Of a stretch of 64,000 nucleotides of DNA, positions 6,409 to 54,518 are shown piece after piece. Below the pieces are notes generated by a model. The model was not told where the DNA came from, did no database searches, and saw nothing but the letters and a program-made list of their open reading frames with translations. The DNA comes from Chondrosia reniformis (Eukaryota > Porifera > Demospongiae > Chondrillida > Chondrillidae): NCBI GenBank assembly GCA_947172415.1, contig OX359193.1, positions 8,085,501-8,149,500 of the forward strand, given 5' to 3'. Every line of letters starts with the position of its first letter. Within the stretch, counting starts at the first letter, position 1. The position numbers and the translations under genes were made by a program.

Positions 6409-7144
6409 TTCTTCCTAGACCATTCAGACTACATATATAAATTCATTCCTCTGGAAAGTGGGATCATATATATAGTTAGGTATTATATAACAATACCTTA
6501 ATTAGATGCAGGCATTGAGAGTTGCATGGAGAGACTATTGTGGACTTATAAGTGTGAATATATATATGTAAGTACTGTAGCTCATTTTATAGTACGTACA
6601 CATACATTTTAGGAAGTCATTCAGCTTGTATAAGAAGTAGATGGAAAGTTCCTCATAACATCTCTAATATTCCATTCACTTCGTAATATAATTAAATAAT
6701 TTATCATCCATACACAATGTACATTATGAATATATACATTTCAATGGAGAATATATTGTTATTATATTATAATACACACATAACTAAATTACATATGAAT
6801 ACAAAAATGTCCTATGTAACATCTTCAGATTTGTCCAAATAGAAGCCAAGGCCTCTATTCAGACAAATACAGTGTACCCACGTACAGCCTCTGCTAATAT
6901 ATACTATACATGTATATATCTTAAATAACTCCAGTGGATATTTTAATTAAGACAGATCGACTTTATTGTCAATGTGACATATATTATAGCATAGCACAGT
7001 ACTAGTACTTCTTATTCATATTATTCACATACAACCAGCCATTTCAATATAAAAATGTACAACCATGTATATAATATAAATCAGTAAGAACACACAGAAC
7101 ACACACACAATACACTGCATCATGTGGTATATATTGTCAGTCAA
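6409..7144. other. AT-rich intergenic region
   Basis: No supported gene. It is AT-rich with many TATATA and ACGTA runs. It holds the upstream region of the lectin gene (TATATA stretches about 30-60 bp upstream of its start) and the 3' flank of the coiled-coil gene. Confidence 0.6.
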
Positions 7145-34704: not shown

Positions 34705-35136
34705 TATTGTACTCAACATATATGATAGTTTCTAGCATGATACATTCTATTCTATTGTTAATGTATTGTTAACTTTGTCTTATTTGAAATGAAAGTTCAT
34801 TGACAATTTGATGAGCACTTTGCAATTATATACAAAAATTACCCTTTATTATTGGGTACTTCATAATATAATAGATCATGAATGAACATAATAGGAGACT
34901 ATTCATATTCAGCACATAATATGTCATGCTAAAAAAAGAAGTTATTTATACTAGTCCAATGTGCAGTGTATCACTATTTGTGCAACTGTCTCTGTACCAT
35001 GATCCTTAAAATGGATTTTTGTTTTTTTAGGCTTAAATATGCAATGAAACTGAAAAACTTCATATTATAAATTCATATAGTATATATATATATTCTGTAA
35101 ATTAATGCCAAACACCGTGTAAGTTATATAGATCAA
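34705..35136. other. Intergenic region, UNC80 3' flank
   Basis: AT-rich. It holds the UNC80 3' UTR region and a 51-bp fragment similar to the downstream membrane-protein gene (34951-35001). There is no other supported gene. Confidence 0.6.
34951..35001 (+). pseudogene. Fragment similar to the downstream seven-membrane-segment gene
   Basis: CTAGTCCAATGTGCAG plus a following GTGTATCA(C/G)TATTTGTGCAACTG-type segment matches coding DNA at 36599-36659, with an internal loss of about 9-10 bp and a few substitutions. It lies about 200 bp upstream of that gene's start in a non-coding stretch. It is a relic of a partial duplication. Confidence 0.6.
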
Positions 35137-37159
35137 ATGTACTGTAGGTGTAAAGTGAGGTTAGCCTCTATTCTGTTCCTTGTTACTGGTCTATCAGTGT
35201 TTCCAGTGTCTCATCAGAACACTGAGAAATGCATTGACTCCTTCAGTGAATTTGAGAATGAAACAATTTGGAGAAACCAAGAAAATGTTAACAAACTGTT
35301 TCAAAACTTTTATGCAACCAACAAACCTTTACCTCTGTCTGTCCAAATTCAGTTCTTCCACCAGTTCCAAAATGGCAGCAGACTATTAGTCAAGACTAAA
35401 GAAAAGTGTCTTAAGAGTGAAGCATGGCTGTGGCTCTCATCTTCTCTCTACCTCTCAATTGAACCAACTAAATTGAATATGTATGCCCTTTGCACGCTCT
35501 CCTATTTTCAGTTTTGGAGCCCACCAACAGTGGAGCTTCTCGTACCACTGCCTTGTAGGGATGTACGGGTAGAGCTATTAAGTGAAACTGTAAAGAAAGT
35601 AAGTTTAGGATATAATTTACATTAATATGTAACAGATACTGTTTGATTTAAGTACTGTACATGCATAAGGAATATATTTGATTATAATGTCAACCTATAA
35701 ATGGTATTTATCATAAAGCTGTGGTCTTATTATATATAGGATTATATACATGCCATTAAATAGAAATTAGGAGAAAATCTAAACTATAGCTACATATACG
35801 TGAATACATATAATTTCATTACATAAATAATGTAAAAGAATGCCTGGCCCAGAATATAAGAGAATTTGGAATTGAAATAATTTTTAATATGCAACAGCTA
35901 TATATATATAGCTATATATATAGCCAACCAAATACCATGCACTTAAAGAATTTTAATGTACAATTAATATATATACGTACATGCATGTACGTATAAAATG
36001 TTTGTCACATATAAGGAGTTAATTTTCATTTCATTATTATATATAGCTACAGACTTATGCTTTAGGTCAGTATAAAGATGGAGATCTTGGAGATAACTTG
36101 GGGTTTGTTACATGGGGATGTGGTGACAATCCTACACATACCCTATATGAAGATATCTCAAGCAAGCCGTTAACATCAATGCAAAAAATTGCAAAATATA
36201 ATTCATATTTCTTGACTCCAGGAGTATTTCTTCAAGCTGTTTTTCTTGTTTTCATTCACTGCATATATTGTAATACAAATCTACAATGGATTGCTGCTAA
36301 GACTCACGATAAGGCTTATAGGTACTATGGATTAATTTGGAGTTTTGCAACTGTTTCACTTCTAGGTAGCATTGGTCTCTTATGTTACAATGGAGTACTT
36401 ATTAAGATCCTAATACTTTCAAAAGAACCAAGCCTAACTGCAATGGGTTACACCCAAATGACACTCATGGCTATTATGATGATACTTGAATTACTTGTAT
36501 CTATCTTGATGGGAATTAGACTTAATCTTCAAACTCCAGCTATCTTTATAGTCTGTATAAAGATCTTGTGTTGCTGTAGTGAAGTGAAAGCCCAAAAACT
36601 AGTCCAATGTGCAGCTGTTTATAGTGTATCAGTATTTGTGCAACTGGCTCTGTACCATGTAGACTGCATTTTGTTGGCCTTATTGTCTAATCCTCCTCTA
36701 GTCATCTCTTCCTGCTTAGTTTACATTTTTGCTTTATTTTGTGCTGTGCACTTTATGTCTGTTTTCTTTACTTTGGGAAAACTTAACAGCCAAAGACAGC
36801 GAAAGAGAAAGTCTGTCTGCAAACTATTCTTTGGCACTGCACAAATAGTAGCATTTACTACCCTGTTTGTGACTGCATTGTGTTTTGGATTTATCATTGG
36901 TGCATCTGGAGCAATGTCCAGCTATGGTTCACATACAAGGGGGCCCATTCCGACACTCACTGCAATTATAACTCCTTTTCTGTTTGCCGGGCTGGGATAC
37001 TTGTTGAAGAAGGGAAGCTCTCACTGGTTGAAGTCTTATGATATGGATATTTCAGAGAATTCAGTACTTGTAAGCAGCTCAAATGGTGTGCATACAAGGA
37101 GGGTGCAAGGTTGTCAATTTATTCTTAGTAACAGCAGTCAATATGAAGATATACCTTAA
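35137..37159 (+). CDS. Secreted-start protein with ~7 transmembrane segments, unrecognised receptor-like
   Basis: Two exons, 35137-35598 and 36047-37159 (acceptor could also be 36053), giving about 524 aa. It has a signal peptide (LASILFLVTGLSVFP), then about 190 residues outside the membrane with Cys and N-glycosylation motifs (ENETIW, NGSR). About seven hydrophobic segments follow, starting FLTPGVFLQAVFLVFIHCIY and ending LTAIITPFLFAGLGYLL, with a basic loop (SQRQRKRKSVCK) before the sixth. The tail is short and Ser/Tyr-containing. The topology fits a G-protein-coupled receptor or similar, but no family signature (DRY, NPxxY) is evident. It lies between UNC80 and TOPBP1 in the same orientation. 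Confidence 0.7.
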
Positions 37160-37314: not shown

Positions 37315-40300
37315 ATGGCGGCAGGTTAGTACATATATGTATATAATGATAATTTTACTGCATACTCAATCGTTTATCTTAAACTTATTACGTGTGTCTT
37401 AGCTTTAGTTAAAATTCGTGTGGTTCAAACTGTTGGCAATTCAAATTTCTGGCTTTCCAAAGCATCTAAGGTAACTAAGTATAGTATTTCCCTTTCTATA
37501 GATAAGTATTCCTTATGCATATAGAATACATTACCACGCTTTGAAATTGTAGTCGTAGTGCTAGAAATATATATTTGAAGTTTTCCGATTTCAGCGTACA
37601 ATGTCATCCAGCCACACTAGTAGTTTTAAATGTTTATATGATGACTCCCTTGAGCAACTAGGACCTACGTATCCATGGTAACTCAGTGCAATACATATAT
37701 AGTGGTTTGCCAGTACTAGCTGACTATTTAACACTGGTATTGTTAGCTCTTGGAGGACCACAAGTATCATGTTGAGTGGATGGATGGTATAGAGTCACAA
37801 GAACTTATTAATGAGGACTACACTTACATATTGGAGACATTTGACTGTCCCTGCTACAAGCTACTTCACGGGAGATGCAGGTTTGTTTGTTTGTTTATAG
37901 GAGCACTAGTCAACTGAACTGTTTACTGTGTCATCCCATAGTCACACATCTTGTGACCAGTAGATGTATATTATATAGTCCCATGTATGGAATCAATTCT
38001 GTTGCCATGGCAACTCCACCATTAGGAGCAAGTGTATAATATAATAGTGTTTGTATTCCTGTTGTAATACCCCAAAAGTCTGGCTATGAGGGATTAACTA
38101 ACTTGCTCTGCTACAGGATACTGGGAGCGCCTGCTGTTGTGGGCTACCTTGAGAGGGGAAGGAAACTTCCTGTAACAACCAATCAGCAATCAGTCTATGC
38201 TCTGTCAATGTCCAGTGTGCATATCACTTGTACAAGCGTACCTCGCGAGACTAGGGTAAGGAGGGCACAAACTTGGACAGGGGTTGCGCAATCTTGTGTA
38301 AAGGTTGCACAATCTCACTCTTTGTGTTTCCTTTCTATTTATAGAAGGTGTTGTTTGAGAGAGTGAGACAGATGGGCGGAGTGGCAGATGGAGATCTCAC
38401 TAAACGGACCACACATCTCATTTGTGGAGAAGTGCAGTCTCTAAAATACAAGGTTCTAGTGTGGCGCTGTCTACTGTATTCTGTGACACATGTACTATTG
38501 TATAGTACATATGAGACACATATAGTAGTGTATACATCTATAGATTGCTATTAAAGCTGGTATTCCAGTCATGTTACCATCCTGGATCGATCATGCATGG
38601 CATCTGACTGTTACATCCAACCAAATCATTGATGCAACCTCGGAGGATATAGTAAGTTCTCTTTGTGGATTACATGTCTGCTGCTGCATGAAGCAGCACT
38701 GTCACGAGGCCTGAGCTTAGTTAATGGTAGTCCTTCACTGCGATCTCTTTTACGTAGATGAAGGAGCACATGTGTGGTGTATTTCAAGGACTTGTGGTGT
38801 GCGTTACTGGTTTTGCTGTTGATAAGAGAAAGGAGATACAAGACCTTACAAAACATAATGGTACAGAACATGTTATGTGTATTGTAGCTTATGTATGTAT
38901 GTAGTGGTCCTAAAGTATGTATATGTAATGATGATGATGATGGTGATGATGAAACATTATTACTCAAGCTGTGATATAACATCAACTGTAACATTAATGG
39001 TCTATCTAGGCTGAGCAATGTAATAGTGTGTGTGTGTGTGTGTGTAATGTTCGTCTCTATGTACATATATACAGGAGGCACCTATTCAGGGGAGATGAAG
39101 AAGGATGACTGTACTCATCTCTTAGTGGACGCACCCAAGGGCCAGAAATATGAGTTTGCAAGGAAATGGCAGTTAGCAACAGTTCATTCAAGAGTTAGCT
39201 TTAGTGTAGCATGTCCCTTTATTGCTATCATTAACTTGTTAGGGTTGTGTGTTAGTTACACCTCTTGCTTCCTTGAAGTGGTTCTTTGACTCCTTGAAGG
39301 CGGGGGTGTGTCTGCCAGAGGAGGGCTATCTGGTCCGCCCCCCTGACCCGGAGCCCACCAGCGTCAGCCACTCCCAACCCTGGGCTGTGCTTCTGAGTGA
39401 ATTTACACCTTCAAGCAATATCAACACGTCACTTCTGGAAGGATTAAGGGTTAGATGTTTGCATTTGTGTAAATGTAAATACGTATCTGAGTTTTCTAAT
39501 GTATTTTGAACGAAAACTTCCTTTCTGCATGCATTTCAGAGTCTTAACTTATCAATATTTGAGTATTGAAAATATAGTTGAAAATGGTTACTTGTTGTGT
39601 TCAGTTTGATTATGCTTTAGACTGAAAACATTATCACTGTAATTAACTCTTGCTAATTGTGTCCATTTGGCTCTGATATGGCAATGTTACTTTGGTACCC
39701 TATAATATGCATACATATGAGTGACAATTCATATACGTACGTATGTAGATCTCCCTATACAATATCATATAATGTGCATGCTTATAGTTAATCACTACTT
39801 GTACGTTCTGTAGATATATCTCTCTGGTTTCTTGAGGCCTCACGTGGAGAAGACGACCAGTCTGATGTTGCTGTTGGGTGCCAGCAGATTGAAGCAGATC
39901 CACCCATCAGTCACACATGTTCTCATCGGCCAGGAAGAGCCCGAGGAAATGAGCAAGCTAAGAAAATTAAAGTCAAGGTGAGTGAGCCAATTAATTGTGC
40001 AACACTCTCATACATAGTTCTTTAATTTTGTTTAAACTTGTAGCTACACCATTTCCCAATAAATGTTGCTACAATGTAATGTAATAGTCTCTCTTATAAT
40101 GGTCTCTTGGTAACCAATTCCTTCGGTCAGGTAACCAATGACCTGTCTAATGCACCAGGCCCCTGACTGACCAGATTAAACAGGCTCCATTATTCATTTA
40201 TTAGAATTTATTAAATTGAGATTCAAACAATTTCATATTAATACTGTTTGTGTGTATGTTTGGTTATACAAGATTATGAATGTTGACCGTACATAATGCA

Positions 40301-43300
40301 CACCCTATGGCTGCTGGTTGTAATGGTCCAGCTAACTGATGCTCCAAGTAGTCTTTGTCACAACTTTGTCTTCTTGTTTAAAGCTTCTTTCCTGATCAGG
40401 AGCGACAACATAGTTTATTTGTTCACTTGTATCTTGTTTCTGCTGTGAATGCCTGTGGTTCCATCTCACCCTGAGGCATTGTAGTGGACTCTCCTTCCGA
40501 CCAATGTACCACTGTACTACATGCTTAGCATTGTAACATATCCCCAGCACCAGTGGGGAGAGTGCAATGATGAGAATGAGACTGAGTAAGGCGTCATCTC
40601 TACTCTCATTTGGGTTCAACTGAGCACCAGCAAATCCTGTGAGGGAGCTTAGGAAGACCAGAGATAGCAAGGTGATTGTCTCCATGTAGTTGTATTTTGG
40701 CTTCCGAAATGGTTGAAGCAGTGAATGAATAATTAGGATTGTCAGCATCATAAGTGTGAGAATGTACTGACTTCCCTGCTCAGACATTGTGAACAGCAAA
40801 GAGCTCCACAATAATAACCTGTATACCATATATAGACCAGCAAAGAAGCGCAATTTTGGCTTGTAGCATCCTTGGAAGGTGTCGAAAACTGGATCTAGTT
40901 TAGCATAGCGAGGGAGACTCTTGTTTGTGATTCTCTGAGTGATTCTTGAGAGAATGTTGTGAAGGTTTGGGTAGTAGAGAAGGGTTATGGGAAGTGCCAA
41001 TGAAACTATTACAATGGCTTTACCTGGATGAGATAGCCAGCACCATTTTTTACTTGTTTCATTTCCATAGCAACTGTGTACATACAATCTTGCTAATCTA
41101 AAACTTATTTGTATAATGTATCCATAACATATTACTAGCACAGAACCAGTTCCAGTAAGCAAGGAACCACTTTTAATATTCTTTTCTCGGAAATTACGCA
41201 CAGAACGACGAATTTTAGCCCAAATTTTGCTGCAACATAAGATAGGGCATGATTTTATGTGAATCAGCAGCCAAATGATAAGCAGATAGATCAGAATGAG
41301 GAGAACCCTGACATAACCTGTAGCAATGTATATCATCTGGCATTCTTGCAAGTTGAAAGTTCTTTCAATTTGGAGACAGGTTGATGTAACCTCTAGTGGG
41401 ATCTCGTGAAGAGACAGTACATCTGTAATGTTTTCTGTAAGACTTGGGTATCCCCTCTGATCAATCTGACTGTCCTTGCTGAAGAACTTCAGGTTGTATA
41501 CGGCCAGCTTTAAGGTCTGGTAGAAGAAGAGAAAGGAGTGACCCGGTCCTGACACCAAGTTGATGTTGAAGAGCACTATTAGTGGGACTATGACCGCGTA
41601 AGGGAGAAAGTGACCAAATGTGGTGCTTATAAAGTGGGTAAGGTTGAGTGAAGTGTTTCTCCTTTCTCCGTATTCTTCACTGTGAACGGTGTCATTTTCT
41701 GTGTGTTGTGGGGCAGCTGGTCCTGTGGACAATGTTATGACCAGCGCTACCAAGAGAGCTCTCCTCCTCACGACAGCTAACATTACCAAACTAATTCTCA
41801 CGTGCCCACTGATAAATGCCTGTATAAATAGGGAAACCTGGAAAGTTCATTAGCTATATCAGTGTTGGTCACACCTCCACTAAGTGTTCAATATAACAAT
41901 GGGCAAATTATACAGTATAGCAAAATGTTAGGGGCACCCTAGGTAGTTCATTAGGTTTGCTTTTAAAAGATGACTTTCTTTATGGGTGGAGAGGGGCATA
42001 ATATTTTCAAGGGGAAATGTCGGGGCCTCCCCTAAATGGAACCTGCTAGGTATCTCTAGCAGATTACAGAATCCCCTTAACATGTATGAAATTAAGTTAT
42101 ATTGTTTTTCCTGTAATGCGAGTTTGTGTGAGGCAATTACGTTTTTCATATCAATATTGTGCACACCTTTATTAATAAATATTCAGCTAAATGAAAAAGG
42201 GAATGAATACATGTACGTATGCACAGTAATAATAATCTCCAATAGTTGGTCAATTGTCAGTGCATCCTTAGAGCTGTATATCCATAATCCTTAAAACTTG
42301 GTGTTTAGTCACTGAATGTATTTGCTATGAATATGCTGTTGCTTCGCAAACTTGTAACTTTCACATTTGGTGGCAAGCTGTTCTCTGGAGGGACATGATA
42401 AACCTGTCCTTCCACATGTAGGTTACTCTTGTGAAACCTCTTCTTCAGTTTGTCAAGCATGTCTGTCTTTCCCCTTCTGCCATGGTACCACATAACCAAG
42501 TGGCATCCGTAGTAGAGCACTGTCACTGTTAGAGGTAGAAATGTTATTATTGCTATCAATGCGAGGACAGTCTTGGTAACTGCTGCATTCACAGCTATAA
42601 ACTGCTCAGCATCAAAGAATCCTGTCAGAGAACTAAGAAATACAAGAGCTAACAGACTAATGGTTTCCACATAATTGTAACGCATTTCCTTAAAAGGCTG
42701 CAGCAAGGCATGGATAGAAAGTATAAGCAGTAGTGTGATGGTTATAGTAAACTGGGTGAAGAGAGAGGTTTGGATGCATGTCAATATCATTCCCCAAAGG
42801 AAGATACGATAGAGAAGGTAGACCCCTGCATAAAACCGCAGCTTTGATTTGTAGTATCCTTGAAATATGTCAAAAACTGGATCTAGTTTAGCATAGCGAG
42901 GGAGACTCTTGTTTGTGATTCTCTGAGTGATTCTTGAGAGAATGTTGTGAAGGTTTGGGTAGTAGAGAAGGGTTATGGAAGCGGTTACGAGGATAATGAA
43001 AGCTATACTAGATAGTGTGATGGCAGCTCCACATGTTCCCATTGGGCGGAGCTTATTTTCCTCTTCTGTACAGTGCTGAAAATACAATAGGAAAAGTTGA
43101 AAGGTTGTCTGTACAGCGTACCCATAACAAAGCACTAGCAGAGAACATAATCCTGTCAAAATGGACCTTCTTGATAAGTTCTTATTGTGAAAGTTTCTCA
43201 AATAGCGCCTAAGTCTTGCCCAAACCTCATTGCAGCACTTCACAGGACAAGACTTTTTCATTATAAAATGCCATATGACAGCAACATAGACCAAAATTAG

Positions 43301-46300
43301 TACTATCTTTACGGAGTCAGTGATGATATAAATGATAAGGGCTCCTTTATGTGATACCTTGTCAACTCTCCCTTGTATGCCAAGCAGATAGAGAGGTCTG
43401 AAAGGAAGGCTGTGCAGTGACAGAACATCAGTAATATCCCTAATAATTTTTGCTTTATTTGTTGAGTCCACAAACCTGAGAGTAAAGACAGACAACTTTA
43501 AGGTCTGGTAGAAGAAGAGAATCGTGTTTCCAGGCCCTGACACCAGGTTGATGCTGAAGAAAATGAGCAGTGGTACTAGGATCAAATGAGGAAGGAAGTT
43601 TCCAATAGCTGCTCCTACTATCAGTGGAACAAAATTATATTCGCTCTCCTCTGTAGTGTTCTCATTTGTATGGTTATTCCCACTGGTTGCATTGGCTGCA
43701 ACTGTAGTTAAGTAGAGTATAAGAGCAACTATACTAAACACTTGAAGTACAGCCATTTTCTCTGCTGGAGTCCATACCGGATTATTTATTTATTTAAGAT
43801 ATTTATAGCTGTTTTTACACATTTGTGAATATGTAAATTGTTTACATAAGTAAATTTTTAAGAAAACTCTTATATATATCCTCATTCCAAGCTCTCACTA
43901 GGTTTAGTTCCCTATAGGCCTTTACTCTAAAATCTAATACACAATTTTCCTACATGCTATGCCTACTCTGCAAGAATAGGGAACTAAACCTGGAGAGAGC
44001 TGTAGATGAAAATTTCTTCTTCTGCTCCACTGGGCCTTGTAAGAAAAATGGTGTGTTAGATTATTCATGTTTTATACCATTTTGTATGTATGTACGGAAT
44101 TGTAGCAGGGAATGTTTAAATACCTGTTTATTATAAATCAATGTGCATTTGAAGGTTGTTTATTATTTATTAACTTGTGATCTCTAATGAATGTACATTC
44201 TAGAGTTTTTAAAATAACAAATATGAAACCAATTCATTTTCTGCTTCATTTGCTTGGCACATTTTAGTCATCACACAAATGTGAATCAAAGCTTTCTTTT
44301 GCATGTTGATGCATGTAGTTTGTGACGGTGTTCTTCACTTCAGGGCCATCCTTGGCTAAAAGATCAAAGCTATCTTTGTCTTCTGGAGGAACTCTGTATG
44401 CGACGCCTTCTTCACTATCCCTTCTCCTCCTCTCCTGACAACAGAGCCCCATTCTGCTACAGTGCCACTTGAAGTTGTAATATGAGCAATATATGATAGC
44501 AATGGCTAGCGGAAGGAATGCTATTAGAATTATACACAATGATACTGGTTGTATGAGGTTATAGCAACAGGAGCCTATGACAGCACTTGACTTTGCTTCT
44601 GCATTGAGGAATCCTGTCAGAGAGCTTAGGAACACAAGAGCCAGCAGGTTGATGGTCTCCACATAGTTGTACTCTGCCTTCCGAAATGGCTGCATCAAAG
44701 AGTGTACTGTTAAGATGGCTAGGAACATCATGGTAATGATGTACTGACCAGCTTGATCAGTTGGTTTGACCATTACTGGCACAGTCGTCCATAATACTAA
44801 CCTGTACACCATATATAGACCAGCAAAGAAGCGCAATTTTGGCTTGTAGCATCCTTGGAAGGTGTCAAAAACTGGATCTAGTTTAGCATAGCGAGGGAGA
44901 CTCTTGTTTGTGATTCTCTGAGTGATTCTTGAGAGAATGTTGTGAAGGTTTGGGTAGTAAAGAAGGGTCAATGGAAAGAGTAGTAGAAGTGAGGCAATAG
45001 CTATAGCAGTCTTTTGAAGTATGCAGGTGCCTACGGCGGCCATGTTTTCCATGTCACAGTGTCTGATTTTGCCCCTAGCTATTAGCCTGAAAGTAGTCTG
45101 CACCAGGTAACCATAGCAAATAAGTAGCACAGAAACAGTTCCATTCAAGGGAGATCCTCTTGGGATATACTTCTTTCGTAAGTTGCGTACAGAGCGCCTA
45201 ATTTTAGCCCACTTTTTGCTGCAGCATAAGATTGGACACACCCTAACCTGAATCAGGATCCAAATTATGGCCAGATAGACCAGAATAAGTAATACTTTGC
45301 CATACCCTGTGGCGATGTATATGGTACAGTGATCTTGTTTACTGATGTCCTCCGTGTCACAATCAGCAACTACCCTCGGCGGTACTTCAAGTAGTGAAAG
45401 GTACGCTGTAATGTTACTGGCCATGTAAGCATATTCAGCGGTTTTTGAATGATTACTTGAATTCACAAATTTTAAGTTAAATTCAGCCAGCCATAAGGTC
45501 TGGTAGAAGAAGAGAAAGGAGTGACCCGGTCCTGACACCAAGTTGATATTGAAGAGCACTATTAGTGGGACTATGACCGCATAAGGGAGAACGTTACTGT
45601 TAACAAATATATATATATTTCCATTGTCACCCTTGTCTTCACTTTTGTTGTCACTTTTGTTGTCACTTTTGTTGATATTTGCCACTGATAATGACAACAC
45701 AATGAACAAGAGGGAGAGCACCTTCAAATTTATAATGTACTTCATTACTAGAACGTTCTTCAACTTAAAGTTCTTCTTGAAACTATTAGTAACCCTGGTA
45801 ATTTATATATTCAAATATGTGGATCACTTTCTCTTTGCGAATTAGTTTTTGTTCAGTATTGTCTGAAAGTATAAACATGCGAGATATTTTCATAACAGTT
45901 GGTGTACTTATTAATGATTCCTCTTTTATAATAATTATTATGTATTCTGCCTGACTTATTTACTGTAATTAGAGGTCAATGTGGGGATGCAAGCTTTGTT
46001 TAGTTAAATGATTCTTTAACTGTTATAATACTTTGAGTGAAATGCTCTGGAAGATTGTCTTCAGTCTCGTAGCCATCGAGAGACTCATAGCCTCTGCATC
46101 TCTTGTGAATCCAATTTTTAATACGAAAGATGGCATAACAGATGACTAGGACTAGAGGAATCAATGAGATTACTATCGTGCATGCTACAAACAGCGTTCC
46201 CAAGTGTTCCAGTCTTTGATGCTCTTCTGTTACATATCCGGTCAGAGAGCTGAGAAGCACCAGGGCCAACAGATTGGCTACTTCTATGTTGTTGTGCTTC

Positions 46301-49300
46301 GCCTCTTGAAATGGCCTTAGTAGTGCCTGGACTAATAGTAAGGATAGGAACAAGATTGTTATGACATACTGGCTGGTCTGCAGTGTCCCCTTGATAACAA
46401 TGCAGCTCCAAAGAATCATCCGATATGCCATTAATATGCCGGCATGAAAGTACAGATGTAGCTTGTAGCATCCTTGAAATATGTCAAAAACTGGATCTAG
46501 TTTAGCATAGCGAGGGAGACTCTTGTTTGTGATTCTCTGAGTGATTCTTGAGAGAACGTTGTGAAGGTTTGGGTAGTAGAGAAGGATCAGTGGAAAGAGT
46601 GATAACATTACAACAGTAGCAGTACCCAGGAGGAAGCACATGCTACCCAAGGAAGTGCAATCTTCCTCCATCTTCTCACAGAACACATCATCATAGCTGT
46701 CGTTGTAGGTTGCTGTATAGTTGTCTCCTCCACTCCTGCTGCAGAGCCACATCTCGCTCATTCTTACTAACCTGAAACTGACCTGCACAGAGTATCCATA
46801 ACAGATTACCAGTACAGAGCAGGTGCCTATCAGAGCCGACTTGTCTTGATGGTAGTACTCTCGAATGTTACGCATGTAGCGACGACCTCTAGCCCATTTA
46901 TCTGTACAGCAGTACAAAGGGCACGTTTGTCTCCTAATGAGGACCCACAGAAAGAGTAGATACAGTAGAATTAAACCAACTCGAAGGATGCCTGCCAGAA
47001 CTAGCTTTCTCTCAAAATCAGCTTTACCTGTATCAGAATGTCTGTAAACTATTTCTTCCCAAGGAATGGTATTGTAGGAGAGACATTCAGTGCCAATGCT
47101 GAGCACTTTAGCAAGGGAGTGATTATTTAGCAGCAAGTGGAACTTAGCCAGAGGTAGAACTTGGTAGAAGAAGAGAATGGAGTGGCCAGTCCCTGATGCC
47201 AAGTTAATGTTGAAGAAGATAAGCAAAGGGACTATGATGAGATGGGGAACAAAGTCTACCACGCCATAGAGGATGCTCAGAATGGTGCTCTTACTACCAC
47301 ACTGGTCTGTTGAGTTGAGAATTGACAAGTCAGATTGGTGAGGTATAGCGTAATTTGCTGTAGCAAAGGATATATTCAGCACTAGAAAAAGAATTATACT
47401 ACTTCTCATTTTGGCTGACAGGAGCTCTGTTTCTTCACTAAAGCTTCAGTATTCTTTACCCTTTAAATACTTTGTGATTCCACGAGCGGTATTAGCATAT
47501 TCTGTGTAGAAGCAGTGTTTTGTCCCAGTGGTGTACTTGTAAAGGTATCATGAAAGGTCGCTGTACAAAGGTCACTGTACACAGCTGTGCAATGGATAGC
47601 TGCTATATCAACTACACTTTGTACTTGTGTCTCACCATTCACCAGGTAATGTTTCCGTTACTACCGCCTATGTATGATATAGTGATTCAGTTCCTTCAGG
47701 GGAGGACTGAGAAGGATAAAAATGGAGACTGGGAAATTCCTCAGTTGTGTATATGCAATGACTTAGGTGTTTCTCCTTCAGGTAACTTGTAAAGTTTTTT
47801 ATAGTTGTGACAACAGTTACCATTTTTGATGATACTTTTAAATACTGTATTTGTACTAGTAAATATGTGTGTATGTACTGCACATATTTAATATGTTCTA
47901 CTCTATTATGCATTTATATATGTATGCACAAGCATAATTACACATTATAAAAATATTTTGATACATACAAATATGTGTACGTATGTAATGATGTCTTGTA
48001 CACGTACAAGCTGATAGTTACACTATGAATAGTGTTCTCTAACATTTGTAGTGCGTCAATAGTCAGAGTGGAGTGGCTATTGGATTGCTGCCAATCTGGT
48101 AGTCGAGTTGATGAGGCTGCATACACTGTAACCATGGCAACACCTGACAACCTCCCCAGTAGGACAGAGCGCAGTGACCCAATTGAGGAGGGAGAGGACG
48201 AGGATGATATAATGAAGATGTATCTGAATGACATCCAGCAGGATGACGCAATGGAAGTTGATATTCATCAGGGTGACGAGATGGAGGTTGACAACGGAGA
48301 TGTAGCTAAGAGTGAGTGGGTTTCTGTTATCTGCTGTACTCGTCAAACTAAACGGTAGATTCCGTTCAGGCCTCCTTGACACTCTTCCTTGGTTACCTTG
48401 TTAGAATCATCTCTGTTTGTTCCTATTGTCTGGATATATGCACTACGAGTGAAATTTCTTTTAAGTTTCCTTTAATTCTTGAATAGAACCTGATGTGTTG
48501 GCAGGGCAGTGCTTTGATATAAGCCCAAGCTTGAAGGATGGGCAGAAAAGAAGAGTTGTTGAAATGATTGCAGCATTTGGAGGTAAATTCAGTGATGACT
48601 TTAGGCTATGTTGTAGGGTACTGAATGGGTAAGGTAAGGTACATGTACTAATGATGTGGTTACTCATTCGTAACTACAGGTACTATAGGGAAGCCTGCCA
48701 AGTTTATAGTGACCCCACTGTACGTGCTGGATGAAGATTATGACAAAATTTTCGAGCAAGCTATCCCAGTTACCATCTGTTGGCTGGTCAGTCGTCACCT
48801 CCTGATTTTCATGCAAATGCACCTGGTAATAGGTAGTATTCACTAAAGAGATCAGCTACGTTGGCCCCAGGGAAGTGTAATAGCAACAAATTTGATTTAC
48901 ATGTGTTTCCATGGTAACCTTATGGGGGTAGCTTGGTAACTGATCTGTGCACAAGTCCACTTAGTGTACACTCTATAGTGTACAAATGTGTCAGTGTAGC
49001 TTGTAACGACAGAGTAGCTGGACTCACTGAATTTCAAACATGTTTACTATTCTCCTAAGCCAAGTTGTGATAACAGCGCTGTATGGGTCTTACCTGCTGG
49101 TAATGTGTACTTTGTTTGATGGTTCAGTGTTGACCAATTACTTAACCAACCCGGTCTGTTAGTTCTCACCACAAATCTGTCTCCTTCTGTAAGAGAAGCA
49201 TCTTGTTACAGTCTGCGACTCCTTTCATAATTATGGGATGAACACCATTGGCTAGATAGTGATAAACACAACTGTTTAAATTGAACTGGATGCAGATCAT

Positions 49301-52300
49301 GGAATAGTAGAAGAGGACTTGTAACTTGTGTTGTAATGATGTCACTTTTTGCTACATAACCTCCTCGTTAAGCTACCGACTACATACTGCATCCTGTCCA
49401 ATGAGTTGACTACATACTGCATGCCTGGGCTGCATACTTATGTTATGTGCTCCTTTTGAGTAGGAGAGCATTGAGGAGGGAAGAGAATTTCTGAGCCCCA
49501 AGAGTCATTTGTTATTTCAGCCAATACGGGGACAGATAAATACAAGTGCTTTAAATGGATGTTCTGTCTACATCAGTCAGTTTGATGGCCTTCAAAGAAC
49601 TTATCTCCAAATGCTGGCTGGCAAGCTTGGTGCAAGGTGGGAGTGACTACCTGGTGCACTTGGCAATATCCACATACATGCACACACATGTACATATACT
49701 CCATTCTATAGGGTAATGCCACAATTCCATAAAGAATGTACTCATCTCATTTTGAGAGAGCCATCAGGAGAAAAGTACAAAGCTGCAATGAAATGGGGCG
49801 TTCTGACTGTTAGAGACACGTACGATTTTCCTGTTTCTTTTCACTCAAATTGGAGTAGCTACCTATATCTGTTGTATTGTGCACTGTAGGTGGCTCCTTG
49901 AATGTGCAAGGGATGGTAGCAGGGCACTTGAAAGGGATCACAATGTAATCTCTGACATCCCACAAAATCCTCTGCATGATCCCCCTCAAGGGGAACCCCC
50001 TCAGAATCCCCCACGGAAACCCCCTCAGGATCCCACACCAAAGTTACCAGTTGCAGCAGCTCCTTTTTCTAGTGACACAATAACACCTTTTAAGCCTATG
50101 AAACCTGCCTTCAATACATCTGTGAGTTGTGCTGTTCCCTCTAAATGTCTAAAAGATCTCACAGACATGTAGCAATCATTGTCAAATATGTGTTCCAGTC
50201 TGACTTGTTGCATTATCTAGGCAGCTCTTAAGACGTTGCAGAGTCCTTTATCACAAGCAGAGGTCAATACCCAGGTAATACCTGTCTGTTGCCAGCCATG
50301 TGCTTTGTAATACCTGTCTGTTGCCAGCCATGTGCTTTGTAATACCTGTCTGTTGCCAGCCATGTGCTTTGTAATAACTGTCTGTTGCCAGCCATGTGCT
50401 TTATAATACCTGTCTGTTGCCAGCCATGTGCTTTGTAATACCATTTTGTATGTACTTGTCATACTCCATTACTTTGTTGTAGCAATTGGGTGAGATGTTC
50501 TCCAGTGCACTAAAGAAAGCAGCAGACAACTTTGATGTTACTCTGGAAAACAATGGGGTTTACCTCAAGGATGCCACTCTCAAAAAGCCATTAAACGGAG
50601 TAGCCATTTTTGTACATAAAAAACTTGTAAAGAAGCAATGTATGTACCAGCTGTTTTGCTGTCATGGTAACCACAATTAAATGCATACAAACCACATCCT
50701 TTTTCAGCTGAGCTGCATCGTATAGCCCGTAACCTCGGAGCTGAAATTAAGTGGAACTACTGTGACAGTTGCACTCATGTCTTGTACCAAGGCAAGGAGA
50801 ATGATTTCAGCAGGATTAAAGATCTCAAGCAAGCTAAATCTAGTAATTGCTATATCGTGTCGCCTCACTGGATGGAAGCTGTAAGTTGAATGAATCATCA
50901 AGATAATTCTTTAGTAGAAACCCCTTGGAGACAAGTGTCAGTGTACACAATAGTGTGCTTCTTTTCCATTCTGTCACTGCAGTGTCACGATGCAGGTGAG
51001 AGGGTGGATGAAGCAAGGTTTCCGTGTGACTTTACACCACAACTTCAAGTGGTCAGTCATTCACCCTCGCTGCTTATAGCAAAGTTTTAAATTTACACAT
51101 GTATACTGTCTCCATATGAAAAGTGTGTTTGTATCTGTGTGTATAGAGTATACTGTATATATACATATAGTGTGTGTCTGTACAGTATGTATAGTGTATC
51201 CATATGTATAAAGTATATGTGTGTGTAGTGTGTGTCTGTACTTATAGAGTGGTTTGTGTACCAAGAGACTGGCAGGTCAGGTTTTCAAAGCAGCTTCGCC
51301 GCCCACACTCCATGATGAGGAAGCACAGCATACAGTTATCAACAGAGACATTTCACATCCTGTATCATCATCCTTGGTGGTCATTGATAAGGCCCCTCCC
51401 ATGGACACCACCAAGCCTTCTACTGAAGGAGCCTTGAGACTAGAAGATGGTGAAGAACAACTCAAAGGACAAGATAGAGAACAAAATGGAGAACAAGATA
51501 GAGAACAAAATGGAAAACAAGATGGAGAACAAGATGGAGAACAAGATGGAGAACAAGATGGAGAACAAAATGGAAAACAAGATGGAAAACAAGATGGAGA
51601 ACAAGATAGAGAACAAGATGGAGAACAAGATGGTGAAAACAAGGCTGAAGAGATGGATGAAAGTAGCACCCTTCAGGAGAGAGAAGAGTTTCAGAGGCAA
51701 ATGGAGGAAATGGGTATGAAGTATCAGATGCAGAACTCTGCTACCAGAAGGAGTCATCGACTGCAAGAAAAAGGTGTGTAACACTGTATTCATATACCAG
51801 CAATTAATCCATATGGATATTCATTGTTGGTCATATATACATACCTTCTCTCCTTGTGTGCATCTTTAGATAAAATTGGAGAGAGACAGGTAAGGTTTGA
51901 TTAGAGAGATAATCCCTTATGAAGCACGCTTCCATGTTGTTTTGTCGCATTATACAACAGTCAAAGAGACTTATGAAGAAGAAGTCGTTCACAAGTGCTC
52001 ATAAAAGAAGGAAGGTCACACTTGATGACGATGACTCCAACTTGGTGGCTTGGGATTTCAGTTCGCAGACTGTCACCTATGAACACCCAATGACAAAGTA
52101 CACATGCACATGCATAAGTTAACTTTGTTAGCTTTGGTGCCTTGAGGAGGTGTACATCACACAGTCACATGTCTCTGTGGTATTTGGAGCTGTTTGTACA
52201 CTTGTTTACATGCTGTTTGTACACTTGTTCACTTGCTGTTTGTACACTTGTTCACTTGCTGTTTGTACACTTGTTTACATGCAGGATTGGCCAGCAGCAG

Positions 52301-54518
52301 ATTATGGAGATGATAAGAAATGCCGGGTCAGTGCTCCTCTCACTTCTCTTTGTAATTGTTACGCTCCCTCAACCCGACACTCAGAATTATCCCACTCTGT
52401 GCACACTGTAGAGCCAACAATACTGCTGATCAGGCCAAAGAGACTGAAGAGAAGGAAGATGCAGGTGGCTCCAAGAGTAGAGGTGAAGAGACGGAAGAGC
52501 CACCAGTGGCTGCAGAGCAGGTGTGTGCTCAAGACAAAGAGAGTCTCCCAAAGGAACCAGCAACCCACTCCACTCCCCTTCCTCCGCCCCTCAAAGTGCC
52601 AATAGTCACCAGAGGGGAGTCTACTAGTAGCAATGCCAGCCACATTTTATATGAACAGCAGCCCCAGGCCACTAGTGGGGTAAGTAATGCATATAGTATA
52701 CAGCAGCCTGGGCCACTAATGGGGTAGGTAATGCATATATACGTAGTATACAGCAGCCCTGGGCCACTAGTGAGGTAGGTAATGCATATATACGTAGTAT
52801 ACAGCAGCCTGGGCCACTACTGGGGTAGGTAATGCATATATACGTAGTATACAGCAGCCCTGGGCCACTAGTGAGGTAGGTAATGCATATATACGTAGTA
52901 TACAGCAGCCTGGGCCACTAGTGAGGTAAATGATGTATGCTCACAAGTTGTTTTGTTGTTCAGCTGAGGCCGAGGAATGTTCAACACAAGTTCATGTTCT
53001 CTGGAATAACTCAAGAGGTACAGACTCTTCAGATGCATACATTTACCAACTATAGTATTCTAATTCCTCCCCTCTAGGCTCGTAACAACTATAGTATTCT
53101 GGTCTCAGAGCTTGGAGGGCAGAGCATCTCAGCTACTCACTACGATCCATCTTGCACTCATATGGTGGTCGGAAAGGCAAGCAGAAATGAAAAATATCTT
53201 GCTTCGATAGCAGCTGGTAGGTGGGTCCTCCATGTGTCCTACCTAGAGGCCTGCAAGGAGGCAAGATGTTTTGTTGAGGTCAGCTAATACTGCAGCCTAG
53301 CATTGCTTAATTCAACCTCTAGTTTTTTTTCTGGGGAATATCTTTGTTACTACATAGTCAAGAAGTGTGTTACTGTAGTTTCAAACAAATTTTTTATAAA
53401 GAAATTAATCTAGAGTTTGGTATAAGCCTACATTTGTGCAAAGTTTTCACATCCATTGCAATAAATATGTTTTAAGTAATCTTAATGGCTATTTAGGCAC
53501 TATAAGCGAGATCATCCTATCCCTGCATATATACGTATTGTATCTAACAGGAAAGTGCTTTTGAATGGGGAAGCAACCGTTTGGACAGTGAACTGTCACC
53601 TTTAGATAAAGCAGCTAAATCCTGGAGGCTCTCTCTTGAGGAGAAGAGAAAAGTGAGTGTCTCAGGTGTTTATTGTGTGTCGGCCATTTTACCCATTGAT
53701 TGAATATGTAGAACCATTTCTGATCAGCTTATATATATGTATATCAGAATTGCAAGCAGTAAATGTTGCATGTCTTGTTGTAATGAATTTAAGATGTTTC
53801 CACTTTTCAATATTATGCATCTTAATGTGTTGTAGTGTCGCACAACACTTTTACATTTTAGTATGTACCACTCTCTAGGTCACCAGGAAAGATGTAGGTG
53901 CATTTCAGGGATGGAAGGTAAGAATTGTAATTTTGAAAAACAAACTTGAGAGTGGAGTGAATTGAATAAGTAAGAGGTTTAGGAATAAGTGAAGAGTGCT
54001 AGGAATGAAAGAGGTTCTTCCTGGTTCAACTGTAAACTTTAATATTTGGTGAAGTTCACCCAAAGCCATGGGCCATCACATTGCTTGTCACTTTGGCCTT
54101 CTCTGTGCTGTTGGGTAGGCATTGTTGGTTGTGGCTGATAAGGAAAAGATGGCGGGTGTCAAGCGGCTTCTGGAAGCTGGGCATGCTGAAGTGGTCGGCA
54201 TCAGAGATCCGTACAGGAAATTCAAAGAAGCCACACATGCATTCATTGACATGGGAAAAACAGGAAGAAGAAGTGTCAAAATGGTATGTATAAGTCGCAT
54301 CAAAGTAACAGTATCAGTCATTGATAATTACCAGAAAATTGTGATACCTTTATAGTGTTAAGTGACTGTAATCTAACTGACCACCACACATGAATATTAC
54401 CTGTTTGTAGGACCATATAAGGGAATGGAGAGCAGCTGGTGTAACCTGCCTGAAACCCGAATATATTGCAGAATACTTGACTCATGTGCGTGTGTGTGGT
54501 TTGTTAATTGTTGTATGA
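37315..54518 (+). CDS. TOPBP1: DNA topoisomerase II-binding protein 1 (multi-BRCT)
   Basis: Nuclear scaffold for replication initiation and ATR checkpoint activation. Thirty-one in-frame exons (1404 aa; human 1522): 37315-37324, 37403-37470, 37747-37880, 38117-38255, 38345-38452, 38544-38651, 38758-38860, 39075-39193, 39279-39449, 39814-39977, 48052-48311, 48487-48582, 48680-48786, 49464-49636, 49712-49819, 49890-50121, 50221-50274, 50483-50639, 50708-50880, 50983-51051, 51248-51773, 51870-51889, 51961-52097, 52285-52326, 52412-52679, 52964-53017, 53078-53278, 53551-53652, 53879-53917, 54119-54283, 54411-54518. BRCT landmarks are [86 protein letters not shown] and FEWGSNRLD; a C-terminal BRCT carries [15 protein letters not shown] (about residue 1065) matches the ATR-activation Trp region. 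Exon 22 is only 20 nt. Intron 10 (8,074 bp) holds four antisense genes; the other introns are under 0.7 kb. Confidence 0.96.
40332..41801 (-). CDS. Nested polytopic membrane protein, paralogue A
   Basis: Intronless, 489 aa, antisense within TOPBP1 intron 10. It has a signal-like N-terminus and about eight further membrane segments. Landmarks are [18 protein letters not shown] near residue 80, a Cys pair region [50 protein letters not shown], and [10 protein letters not shown] in the penultimate helix. The FQG-YK...FFAGLY and FNI..SG..-F-YQ patterns resemble the C-terminal membrane module of many large invertebrate extracellular proteins (recalled, not searched). Here that module stands almost alone. 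The function is unknown; a receptor or channel-like role is possible. It is closest to paralogue C. Confidence 0.75.
   Translation of the reverse strand: MRISLVMLAVVRRRALLVALVITLSTGPAAPQHTENDTVHSEEYGERRNTSLNLTHFISTTFGHFLPYAVIVPLIVLFNINLVSGPGHSFLFFYQTLKLAVYNLKFFSKDSQIDQRGYPSLTENITDVLSLHEIPLEVTSTCLQIERTFNLQECQMIYIATGYVRVLLILIYLLIIWLLIHIKSCPILCCSKIWAKIRRSVRNFREKNIKSGSLLTGTGSVLVICYGYIIQISFRLARLYVHSCYGNETSKKWCWLSHPGKAIVIVSLALPITLLYYPNLHNILSRITQRITNKSLPRYAKLDPVFDTFQGCYKPKLRFFAGLYMVYRLLLWSSLLFTMSEQGSQYILTLMMLTILIIHSLLQPFRKPKYNYMETITLLSLVFLSSLTGFAGAQLNPNESRDDALLSLILIIALSPLVLGICYNAKHVVQWYIGRKESPLQCLRVRWNHRHSQQKQDTSEQINYVVAPDQERSFKQEDKVVTKTTWSIS
42305..43756 (-). CDS. Nested polytopic membrane protein, paralogue B
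   Basis: Intronless, 483 aa. It has a signal peptide ([20 protein letters not shown]), then NxT/S sites (SGNNHT, ENTTEE) in a short ectodomain, then the same order of about eight membrane helices as paralogue [78 protein letters not shown]. It lies 503 bp upstream (in transcription sense) of paralogue A, with no shared 5' exon, so each gene probably has its own promoter. The cytoplasmic tail differs from A and C. Function unknown. Confidence 0.75.
   Translation of the reverse strand: MAVLQVFSIVALILYLTTVAANATSGNNHTNENTTEESEYNFVPLIVGAAIGNFLPHLILVPLLIFFSINLVSGPGNTILFFYQTLKLSVFTLRFVDSTNKAKIIRDITDVLSLHSLPFRPLYLLGIQGRVDKVSHKGALIIYIITDSVKIVLILVYVAVIWHFIMKKSCPVKCCNEVWARLRRYLRNFHNKNLSRRSILTGLCSLLVLCYGYAVQTTFQLFLLYFQHCTEEENKLRPMGTCGAAITLSSIAFIILVTASITLLYYPNLHNILSRITQRITNKSLPRYAKLDPVFDIFQGYYKSKLRFYAGVYLLYRIFLWGMILTCIQTSLFTQFTITITLLLILSIHALLQPFKEMRYNYVETISLLALVFLSSLTGFFDAEQFIAVNAAVTKTVLALIAIITFLPLTVTVLYYGCHLVMWYHGRRGKTDMLDKLKKRFHKSNLHVEGQVYHVPPENSLPPNVKVTSLRSNSIFIANTFSD
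43890..44070. repeat. Rearranged copy of dispersed repeat, with short inverted arms
   Basis: It contains AGCTCTCACTAGGTTTAGTT...CCTATAGG (about 43891-43919) and, reversed about 60 bp later, AGGGAACTAAACCTGGAGAG. A TTCTGCTCCACTGGGCC string follows that is the complement of the CCAGTGGAG box of the hammerhead elements. No hammerhead core is present. It sits between paralogues B and C. Confidence 0.6.
44264..45763 (-). CDS. Nested polytopic membrane protein, paralogue C
   Basis: Intronless, 499 aa. A signal peptide ([16 protein letters not shown]) is followed by a short Asn/Lys/Asp repeat ([18 protein letters not shown], partly from a DNA tandem repeat) and then the shared membrane architecture: [80 protein letters not shown]. 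It is the nearest relative of paralogue A: long stretches of DNA are shared between them, including the first membrane segment and 44800-44980. The tail is charged and longer. Function unknown. Confidence 0.75.
   Translation of the reverse strand: MKNVLVMKYIINLKVLSLLFIVLSLSVANINKSDNKSDNKSEDKGDNGNIYIFVNSNVLPYAVIVPLIVLFNINLVSGPGHSFLFFYQTLWLAEFNLKFVNSSNHSKTAEYAYMASNITAYLSLLEVPPRVVADCDTEDISKQDHCTIYIATGYGKVLLILVYLAIIWILIQVRVCPILCCSKKWAKIRRSVRNLRKKYIPRGSPLNGTVSVLLICYGYLVQTTFRLIARGKIRHCDMENMAAVGTCILQKTAIAIASLLLLFPLTLLYYPNLHNILSRITQRITNKSLPRYAKLDPVFDTFQGCYKPKLRFFAGLYMVYRLVLWTTVPVMVKPTDQAGQYIITMMFLAILTVHSLMQPFRKAEYNYVETINLLALVFLSSLTGFLNAEAKSSAVIGSCCYNLIQPVSLCIILIAFLPLAIAIIYCSYYNFKWHCSRMGLCCQERRRRDSEEGVAYRVPPEDKDSFDLLAKDGPEVKNTVTNYMHQHAKESFDSHLCDD
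46000..47409 (-). CDS. Nested polytopic membrane protein, paralogue D
   Basis: Intronless, 469 aa, the most divergent and first in the antisense series. A signal peptide ([15 protein letters not shown]) is followed by [34 protein letters not shown], a Cys-containing insert with NxT/S sites between helices, [31 protein letters not shown] and [10 protein letters not shown]. The Tyr-containing tail ([12 protein letters not shown]) could be phosphorylated; this is inference. The gene lies 236 bp from the stop of paralogue C and 642 bp from TOPBP1 exon 11. Function unknown. Confidence 0.75.
   Translation of the reverse strand: MRSSIILFLVLNISFATANYAIPHQSDLSILNSTDQCGSKSTILSILYGVVDFVPHLIIVPLLIFFNINLASGTGHSILFFYQVLPLAKFHLLLNNHSLAKVLSIGTECLSYNTIPWEEIVYRHSDTGKADFERKLVLAGILRVGLILLYLLFLWVLIRRQTCPLYCCTDKWARGRRYMRNIREYYHQDKSALIGTCSVLVICYGYSVQVSFRLVRMSEMWLCSRSGGDNYTATYNDSYDDVFCEKMEEDCTSLGSMCFLLGTATVVMLSLFPLILLYYPNLHNVLSRITQRITNKSLPRYAKLDPVFDIFQGCYKLHLYFHAGILMAYRMILWSCIVIKGTLQTSQYVITILFLSLLLVQALLRPFQEAKHNNIEVANLLALVLLSSLTGYVTEEHQRLEHLGTLFVACTIVISLIPLVLVICYAIFRIKNWIHKRCRGYESLDGYETEDNLPEHFTQSIITVKESFN
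50275..50441 (+). repeat. 33-bp tandem repeat, 5 copies (TOPBP1 intron 17)
   Basis: Five units of GTAATACCTGTCTGTTGCCA plus GCCATGTGCTTTG. The array starts exactly at the exon-17 splice donor (CAG|GTAATACC), so the donor sequence GTAATAC is present in every unit. Confidence 0.95.
51475..51640 (+). repeat. Coding repeat in TOPBP1 exon 21 (GEQD/REQN units)
   Basis: Tandem 12-bp-type units (GATGGAGAACAA and variants) encode about 13 copies of an acidic [16 protein letters not shown] tetrapeptide. It lies in the linker between BRCT modules, where length is expected to be tolerated. Confidence 0.9.
52188..52284 (+). repeat. 23-bp tandem repeat, 4 copies (TOPBP1 intron 23)
   Basis: Four units of CTGTTTGTACACTTGTTCAC (or TTTACATG) ending at the exon-24 acceptor. 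The last unit's end, TTTACATGCAG, forms the splice acceptor itself. Confidence 0.9.
52657..52927 (+). repeat. ~51-bp tandem repeat copying the exon 25 / intron 25 junction
   Basis: The last ~23 nt of exon 25 plus its donor (ACTAGTGGG|GTAAGTAATGC) is followed by five more copies of the same junction (CAGCAGCCTGGGCCACTA..., GGTAGGTAATGCATATATA). The array therefore offers six candidate 5' splice sites in a row. Confidence 0.9.

Follow-up and report, generated by a model that had tools for sequence, protein, structure and literature searches.

In humans, the genes OMG, EVI2A and EVI2B lie on the opposite strand within one intron of the large host gene NF1; to our knowledge, this group contains no array of four paralogues. 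The nesting of the TipE genes of insects was retained in most of the species studied and lost in the flour beetle and the silk moth, according to the available part of PMC3240667. For sponges, the accessible text of PMC10282587 lists 2,432 nested genes in the annotation of Aphrocallistes, 3,358 in that of Amphimedon and 5,032 in that of Sycon, and the same table gives 83 for Oopsacas and 0 for Ephydatia, which its authors blame on annotation options; Chondrosia is not among the species counted. Intronic gene placement as observed here in TOPBP1 is common in sponge annotations and less unusual than the first-pass annotation had taken it to be. A literature search on TOPBP1 with a nested gene returned nothing on topic.

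Exons 1–21 of TOPBP1 were modelled from splice sites and domain matches on the plus strand at 37315..51773 of the window (the whole stretch of 64,000 nucleotides of Chondrosia reniformis DNA that was analysed), and the gene extends at least to a BRCT exon at about 53078–53284. The 21 modelled exons form a single open frame of 1,036 aa, with GT donors and AG acceptors at 20/20 introns each. Best PDB matches were TOPBP1 chains for residues 6–292 (6hm5), 494–657 (5u6k) and 761–857 (3jve) as well as for the downstream BRCT exon (e.g. 3al2, 1.4e-20). Hence, PDB matches revealed an ordered series of TOPBP1 BRCT domains, tested up to but not including the last BRCT, for which we take the domain numbering of the matched chains to be correct. 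Exon 10 (39814..39977, plus strand) encodes the first half of BRCT3 and exon 11 (48052..48311, plus strand) the second half; the GT-AG intron 10 between them (39978..48051) comprises 8,074 bp and splits a codon as AG|T. The domain spanning the 39977|48052 join scored above the Pfam BRCT cut-off and aligned with the TOPBP1 structures 8ok2 (1.8e-13) and 1wf6 (2.8e-9), both presumably BRCT3. The first-pass annotation had placed nested genes in an intron of this length, and the continuity of BRCT3 across the in-frame GT-AG join bears this out; its description of the remaining introns as small also proved correct for the other 19 introns of the model up to 51773, which measure 49–677 bp.

Intron 10 contains the four complete single-exon paralogues that had been proposed, all reading from ATG to stop on the minus strand and 469–493 aa in length. 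They were designated m1 (40332..41783, 483 aa), m2 (42305..43756, 483 aa), m3 (44264..45745, 493 aa) and m4 (46000..47409, 469 aa, a multi-pass membrane protein by hydropathy). These intronless genes share one orientation and 39–52% pairwise identity, and span 7,078 bp of the intron; as their coding regions lie wholly within one TOPBP1 intron, they are nested genes. Outside a shared tract described below, pN values of 0.35–0.48 were well below pS values of 0.69–0.79 in 6/6 pairs, which indicates selection on the ORFs at the protein level and rules out chance ORFs. A Pfam search with the four proteins yielded no match, and two PDB profile searches gave nothing credible (two matches with E values of 0.43 and 0.72 in one, none in the other). 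Likewise, the search for relatives in viral contigs produced 117 pattern matches, none of which was confirmed.

Two long paralogues, each a single-frame ORF, were found elsewhere in the genome (C14, 5.36 Mb, 1,283 aa; C11, 4.26 Mb, 1,277 aa). In both, about 850 aa with a Chlam_PMP match precede the first membrane span, followed by a C-terminal multi-pass module common to the long paralogues and m1–m4 (C11 module to m4, E 1.2e-28). In contrast, m1–m4 lack the large ectodomain and the Chlam_PMP match; in m1, about 35 aa separate a signal-like start from the first span. The initial idea of a free-standing membrane module thus gained ground from two long ORFs that carry the module behind a Chlam_PMP-matching ectodomain, and these comparisons support the view that m1–m4 would represent a free-standing form of it. 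Across 16 family members the module showed no Pfam match above cut-off; DUF7630 appeared below its cut-off in 2/16, both of them long members. No Pfam or PDB profile searched covers the module above cut-off, and the locus points to a so far unnamed family of sponge membrane proteins that includes both free-standing members and members with a long ectodomain. In a 19-row tree, m1–m4 formed one group (92/95), with support below the tool's mark of 95 and a grouping that the tract itself may bias, joined by the C13 copy (100/99), which has a long branch in a tree rooted for drawing only. Seven ORFs flanking other family copies were searched against Pfam, and none matched at C2 (three ORFs) or C13 (two ORFs). 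The family copy at 8.41 Mb of C5 adjoins a TRAF-zinc-finger/Cul7 ORF.

An identical stretch of 70 bp occurs on the minus strand in all four nested genes, at 40885..40954 in m1, 42873..42942 in m2, 44868..44937 in m3 and 46487..46556 in m4, and the exact match between m1 and m2 continues to 40990. A second patch at 41511..41597 (minus strand) consists of two stretches, 54 and 32 bp long, that match exactly between m1 and m3 (partner 45494–45580). Within a tract of 38 codons, whose borders were chosen after the block had been seen, dS was 0.04–0.14 as compared to values from 1.85 to unmeasurable outside it in 6/6 pairs. A border-free test gave longest identical silent-site runs of 30–38, which were reached by 0/5,000 shuffles in each of the six pairs. 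A genome search that passes over common words, so that its counts are lower bounds, detected the tract DNA at no site besides these four, and none of seven author-chosen between-cluster pairs contained a long silent-site run. A second array at 5.52–5.54 Mb of C5 carries a block of its own at a different place in 6/10 pairs, namely those among four of its five copies. For the C9 array, 10/10 pairs from five of about eleven copies were without a block, but these copies are too alike throughout to give the comparison power. The nested array thus combines a block of silent identity, confined to a single array, with paralogues that are otherwise saturated. As silent sites are saturated except in the tract and the tract DNA was found nowhere else, local ectopic gene conversion among m1–m4 is the most likely origin of the 38-codon tract, which the first-pass annotation did not mention.

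The arrangement is best explained, and quite probably so on the sequence evidence, by an antisense founder, tandem spread, conversion, separate transcription and splicing of the host over 8 kb. A founder from a sponge family of single-exon multi-pass proteins would have arrived in antisense orientation in intron 10 of TOPBP1, and the tree suggests that tandem duplication in place may have turned it into four genes. These appear to evolve under protein-level selection while, judging by the silent sites, short stretches would be homogenised by ectopic gene conversion. Splicing of the TOPBP1 pre-mRNA over 8 kb is suggested by the uninterrupted frame and by a BRCT3 that stays intact across the join. 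Spacing and AATAAA signals are consistent with m1–m4 being separate units of the opposite strand with their own starts and stops within the intron, which leaves 642 bp upstream of m4 and 354 bp downstream of m1. AATAAA was found 93–132 nt past the stop in 3/4 genes; neither AATAAA nor ATTAAA occurs after m4 in the 254 nt preceding m3, and m4 might therefore read through into m3. TATA-like boxes 47–62 nt upstream of the ATGs were no better than those in shuffled sequences (p 0.32–0.89).

Other explanations were considered for single parts of this history. The intronless ORFs would also be expected if the founder had been a retrocopy derived from the mRNA of a spliced gene. This origin is unlikely, as the aligned relatives, chosen for completeness, have one open frame in 12/12 cases, no spliced parent turned up, albeit without an exon-by-exon search, and both flanks of the cluster match only themselves in the genome. 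The C13 copy has a possible 5′ exon, recognised by eye, carrying its signal peptide. A search for insertion marks gave 12 inverted-repeat pairs of 16–26 nt, none of which links both ends of intron 10. Identity of the tract might instead be kept by a function at the nucleotide level, that is, by an element acting in RNA or DNA that each of the four genes would contain, since the 70 bp are alike in every copy, silent sites included, and lie at one and the same place in 6/6 pairs. Such an element is quite unlikely: the silent identity was absent from the 7/7 chosen between-cluster pairs and the tract from the rest of the genome, the C5 block sits at a different place, and the additional m1–m3 patches are expected of partial conversions. 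Furthermore, the tract and the C5 block both overlap conserved stretches of the family protein, which would provide matching DNA for recombination at both places.

The 8-kb intron itself would be an artefact if the assembly contained a misjoin or if two adjacent genes had been modelled as one. This is extremely improbable, as each half of BRCT3 has one strong genome match, flanking the cluster on either side, and the two further matches are weak (7.7e-5 and 0.0066, 28% identity). There are no N bases in the window, and the assembly was built from HiFi and Hi-C data with a QV of 69.8, as stated in the available portion of PMC12181767. Regulation between the antisense cluster and TOPBP1, in either direction, could act by transcriptional interference or shared chromatin, as the two are read in opposed directions across 8 kb and early microarrays gave positive correlations for nested pairs (PMC8467205, in the part available). 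We consider this very unlikely, because the ORFs of m1–m4 do not overlap TOPBP1 exons and expression of the TipE genes is poorly correlated with that of their host gene (PMC3240667, accessible text), while RNA-seq data indicated divergence of nested pairs in Drosophila and no difference from unnested genes in mammals (PMC8467205, same part). Coupled expression of m1–m4 and TOPBP1, as suggested by the first-pass annotation, found no support, and nothing in the sequence links the function of the four proteins to the checkpoint.

In 16 family sequences, N-glycosylation sequons numbered 56 in outer, 9 in inner and 10 in membrane segments, with segment borders drawn from hydropathy and motifs and a sequon count that was not blind. 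Basic residues averaged 23.2 per sequence in inner as compared to 12.0 in outer segments. Identity among m1–m4 amounted to 13–24% in segments called outer versus 92% in the loop called cytoplasmic. Most likely, the nested proteins would lie in a membrane, with an outer face that is glycosylated and diverges rapidly and an inner face that is basic and better conserved. In all of m1–m4, the tract-bearing loop called inner carries an N-K-S sequon, which counts against placing this loop on the inner side. One may speculate that m1–m4 form a receptor-like repertoire, in which free outer faces and one converted cytoplasmic loop would connect varied signals with one inside partner; this reading is weakened by the sequon in that loop of each nested protein, and we regard it as unlikely. 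If true, the same logic would be expected in other arrays of the sponge family.

The nested array of m1–m4 is another case of an already known arrangement. As in the TipE case, several membrane-protein paralogues lie together within a single intron of a host gene unrelated to them; protein family and host are different, and the TipE array overlaps terminal exons of its host, unlike m1–m4 (PMC3240667, in the text available). The insect GMC oxidoreductase cluster in an intron of flotillin-2 also represents an array of paralogues in one intron, although of enzymes, as described in the same portion of PMC3240667. The nested single-exon genes of sponges are likewise intronic, but the available sections of PMC10282587 do not describe antisense paralogue arrays with conversion tracts, and gene conversion is not mentioned for the TipE array in those of PMC3240667, whereas m1–m4 share a tract. 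The locus provides a clean, checkable antisense tandem array within a conserved checkpoint gene and suggests ongoing gene conversion inside a nested array; what is new here is the probable conversion tract within such an array.

The TOPBP1 gene was modelled at 37315-51773 with 21 exons, GT-AG boundaries at 20 introns and a single open frame encoding 1,036 aa. Within the first 861 aa of the model, TOPBP1 chains were the best PDB matches for the N-terminal block (6hm5, 2.4e-46), for residues 494-657 (5u6k, 5.5e-18) and for residues 761-857 (3jve, 3.8e-18), and an exon 3' of the modelled part likewise matched TOPBP1 (3al2 and others, 1.4e-20). Intron 10 (39978-48051) measures 8,074 bp, the other 19 modelled introns 49-677 bp, and it divides a BRCT domain, BRCT3. 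The spliced BRCT3 scored above the Pfam BRCT cut-off and aligned with TOPBP1 across the junction (8ok2, 1wf6). A search of the genome (117,379,552 bases, 15 contigs) with each half of BRCT3 revealed one strong match apiece, flanking intron 10, and two further weak matches. As BRCT3 is continuous across the splice and its halves are located on both sides of the intron, the antisense nesting of four paralogues in TOPBP1, proposed in the first-pass annotation, is borne out on sequence grounds.

By eye, a Glu/Gln/Asp-rich tandem repeat was seen within TOPBP1 coding exon 21 (51440-51640, plus strand), as were repeats resembling minisatellites around 50270-50430 and 52660-52920. A membrane-protein-like gene (~35100-37159, plus strand) adjoins TOPBP1 upstream; its 370-codon open frame (36047-37159, plus strand) gave no Pfam match. 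The window (C5:8085501-8149500) also carries UNC80-matching open frames at 25107-30233 (plus strand; central region 1.9e-10, C-terminal region 2e-25) and a single-frame tectonin-domain protein of 248 aa at 5668-6414 (minus strand; Pfam 3.3e-59). UNC80 belongs to the NALCN sodium-leak channel complex.

The four nested genes are minus-strand open reading frames of 469-493 aa within 40332-47409 (m1, 40332-41783; m2, 42305-43756; m3, 44264-45745; m4, 46000-47409), the rest of intron 10 amounting to 996 bp. Their proteins are 39-52% identical. Outside a short tract described below, pN (0.35-0.48) lies below pS (0.69-0.79), so m1-m4 are under protein-level selection. The first AATAAA follows the stop codon by 93-132 nt in m1, m2 and m3; none was found between the m4 stop and m3, and the TATA-like boxes of m1-m4 were not significant.

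Protein searches of the genome yielded at least 50 matches with m2 and at least 42 with m4, which were grouped into loci by hand, setting aside C14 5.80 Mb (a frame pair) and C11 6.23 Mb (a weak match). About 23 short copies resulted: the four nested genes, five at C5 5.52-5.54 Mb, about 11 at C9 5.80-5.86 Mb and three single copies, one each on C2, at C5 8.41 Mb and on C13. Open frames of more than 1,000 aa occur at C11 4.26, C14 5.36-5.42 (five), C4 8.74, C5 6.50 and C9 7.59 Mb, with weak matches at C5 6.50 and C9 7.59 Mb (E 9.9e-5 and 5.4e-4). The two long members that were read are single frames of 1,283 and 1,277 aa with the multi-pass membrane module at the C-terminus, each with one Chlam_PMP match above the Pfam cut-off (5.9e-6, 1.2e-9); Chlam_PMP repeats form a beta-helix. 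The module of the C11 long member found m4 with an E-value of 1.2e-28. Since these two long frames carry the module behind a Chlam_PMP-matching part, the earlier suggestion that m1-m4 are free-standing versions of such a module is supported within this genome. The five long paralogues at C14:5363624-5418301 form an array with open frames of ~1,300 aa (one read). In the two long genes that were read (L068, L069), splice-acceptor-like AG sites (CTACAG, CTGTAG) were noted by eye 13 and 27 nt 5' of the ATG, so that a 5' UTR intron is possible.

The module itself matched no Pfam or PDB profile above cut-off, and an alignment of 16 members contained 15 invariant columns. This sponge membrane-protein family is unnamed. 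In a 19-row tree built from 17 short and two long members (incomplete or unfetched copies being omitted and the root serving for drawing only), m1-m4 grouped together (92/95, the value of 92 falling under the mark of the tree tool) and were then joined by the C13 copy (100/99). This clustering fits one arrival followed by tandem duplication.

Silent sites among m1-m4 are near saturation except in a tract at m1 codons 264-301, the borders of which were chosen after the block had been seen. For the six pairs, dS was 0.04-0.14 inside the tract; outside it, four pairs gave 1.85, 2.44, 2.48 and 4.03, and for the other two it could not be measured. In each of the six pairs, the longest run of silent-site identity (30-38) was longer than any produced by 5,000 shuffles. 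All four genes are exactly alike over 70 bp, any two share a single run of 70-106 bp, and the pair of m1 and m3 has three additional common runs (59, 54 and 32 bp). Runs of 110, 50 and 100 were rejected as repeats, being overlaps between compared stretches. A genome search with the tract DNA, which passes over common words and gives minimum counts, found four places only, m1-m4 themselves. A nucleotide-level function keeping the tract alike would explain less than gene conversion. A second tandem array (C5:5524354-5536328; L014, L015, L017, L023, L029) has its block at another position: here the homogenised stretch is another one, close to the first membrane span, and is seen in six of ten pairs (four of the five copies), the four pairs involving the fifth copy showing no block. 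The array at C9:5798076-5859384 comprises ~11 copies, several with in-frame stops. The silent sites of the five complete copies compared agree to ~93-95%, which suggests recent amplification or homogenisation of this array; no block was found in the 10 pairs among them because these copies are alike throughout. None of seven pairs picked between clusters showed a block. Gene conversion within m1-m4, as these comparisons suggest, would be a modest new point beside an otherwise ordinary arrangement.

The predicted topology, with segment borders drawn by hand from hydropathy and motifs, comprises a signal peptide, an outer N-terminus, about nine spans and an inner C-terminus. Across 16 sequences, outer segments hold 56 sequons, inner segments 9 and membrane segments 10. 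Counter to the model, four of the nine inner sequons are N-K-S sites in the loop formed by the tract, one per nested protein. Basic residues numbered 23.2 per sequence in inner versus 12.0 in outer segments. Identity among m1-m4 amounts to 13-24% for the outer segments, 23% for the C-terminus and, for the three inner loops, 48%, 92% and 54%. The loop with 92% is that of the putative conversion tract, and its identity would therefore mirror conversion in addition to constraint. Receptor-like or channel-like proteins are our guesses.

A search for literature on TOPBP1 with nested genes gave nothing on topic, as judged from the listing, and the search on conversion in nested arrays was too thin to call such conversion unreported. 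One sponge study puts the number of nested genes at 2,432 (12.4%) for Aphrocallistes, 3,358 for Amphimedon and 5,032 for Sycon; the figure drops to 83 for Oopsacas and to 0 for Ephydatia, which its authors attribute to annotation options, and the study mentions many single-exon genes (PMC10282587). Results on the expression of nested genes are mixed (PMC8467205). The TipE membrane-protein array, as described in PMC3240667, lies in one host intron in most insects studied, and its genes correlate poorly with the host in expression. It resembles m1-m4 as a membrane-protein array nested within one intron. The arrangement of m1-m4 in TOPBP1 is confirmed on sequence grounds and, given the nested genes of sponges and the TipE array, is ordinary and known in kind.
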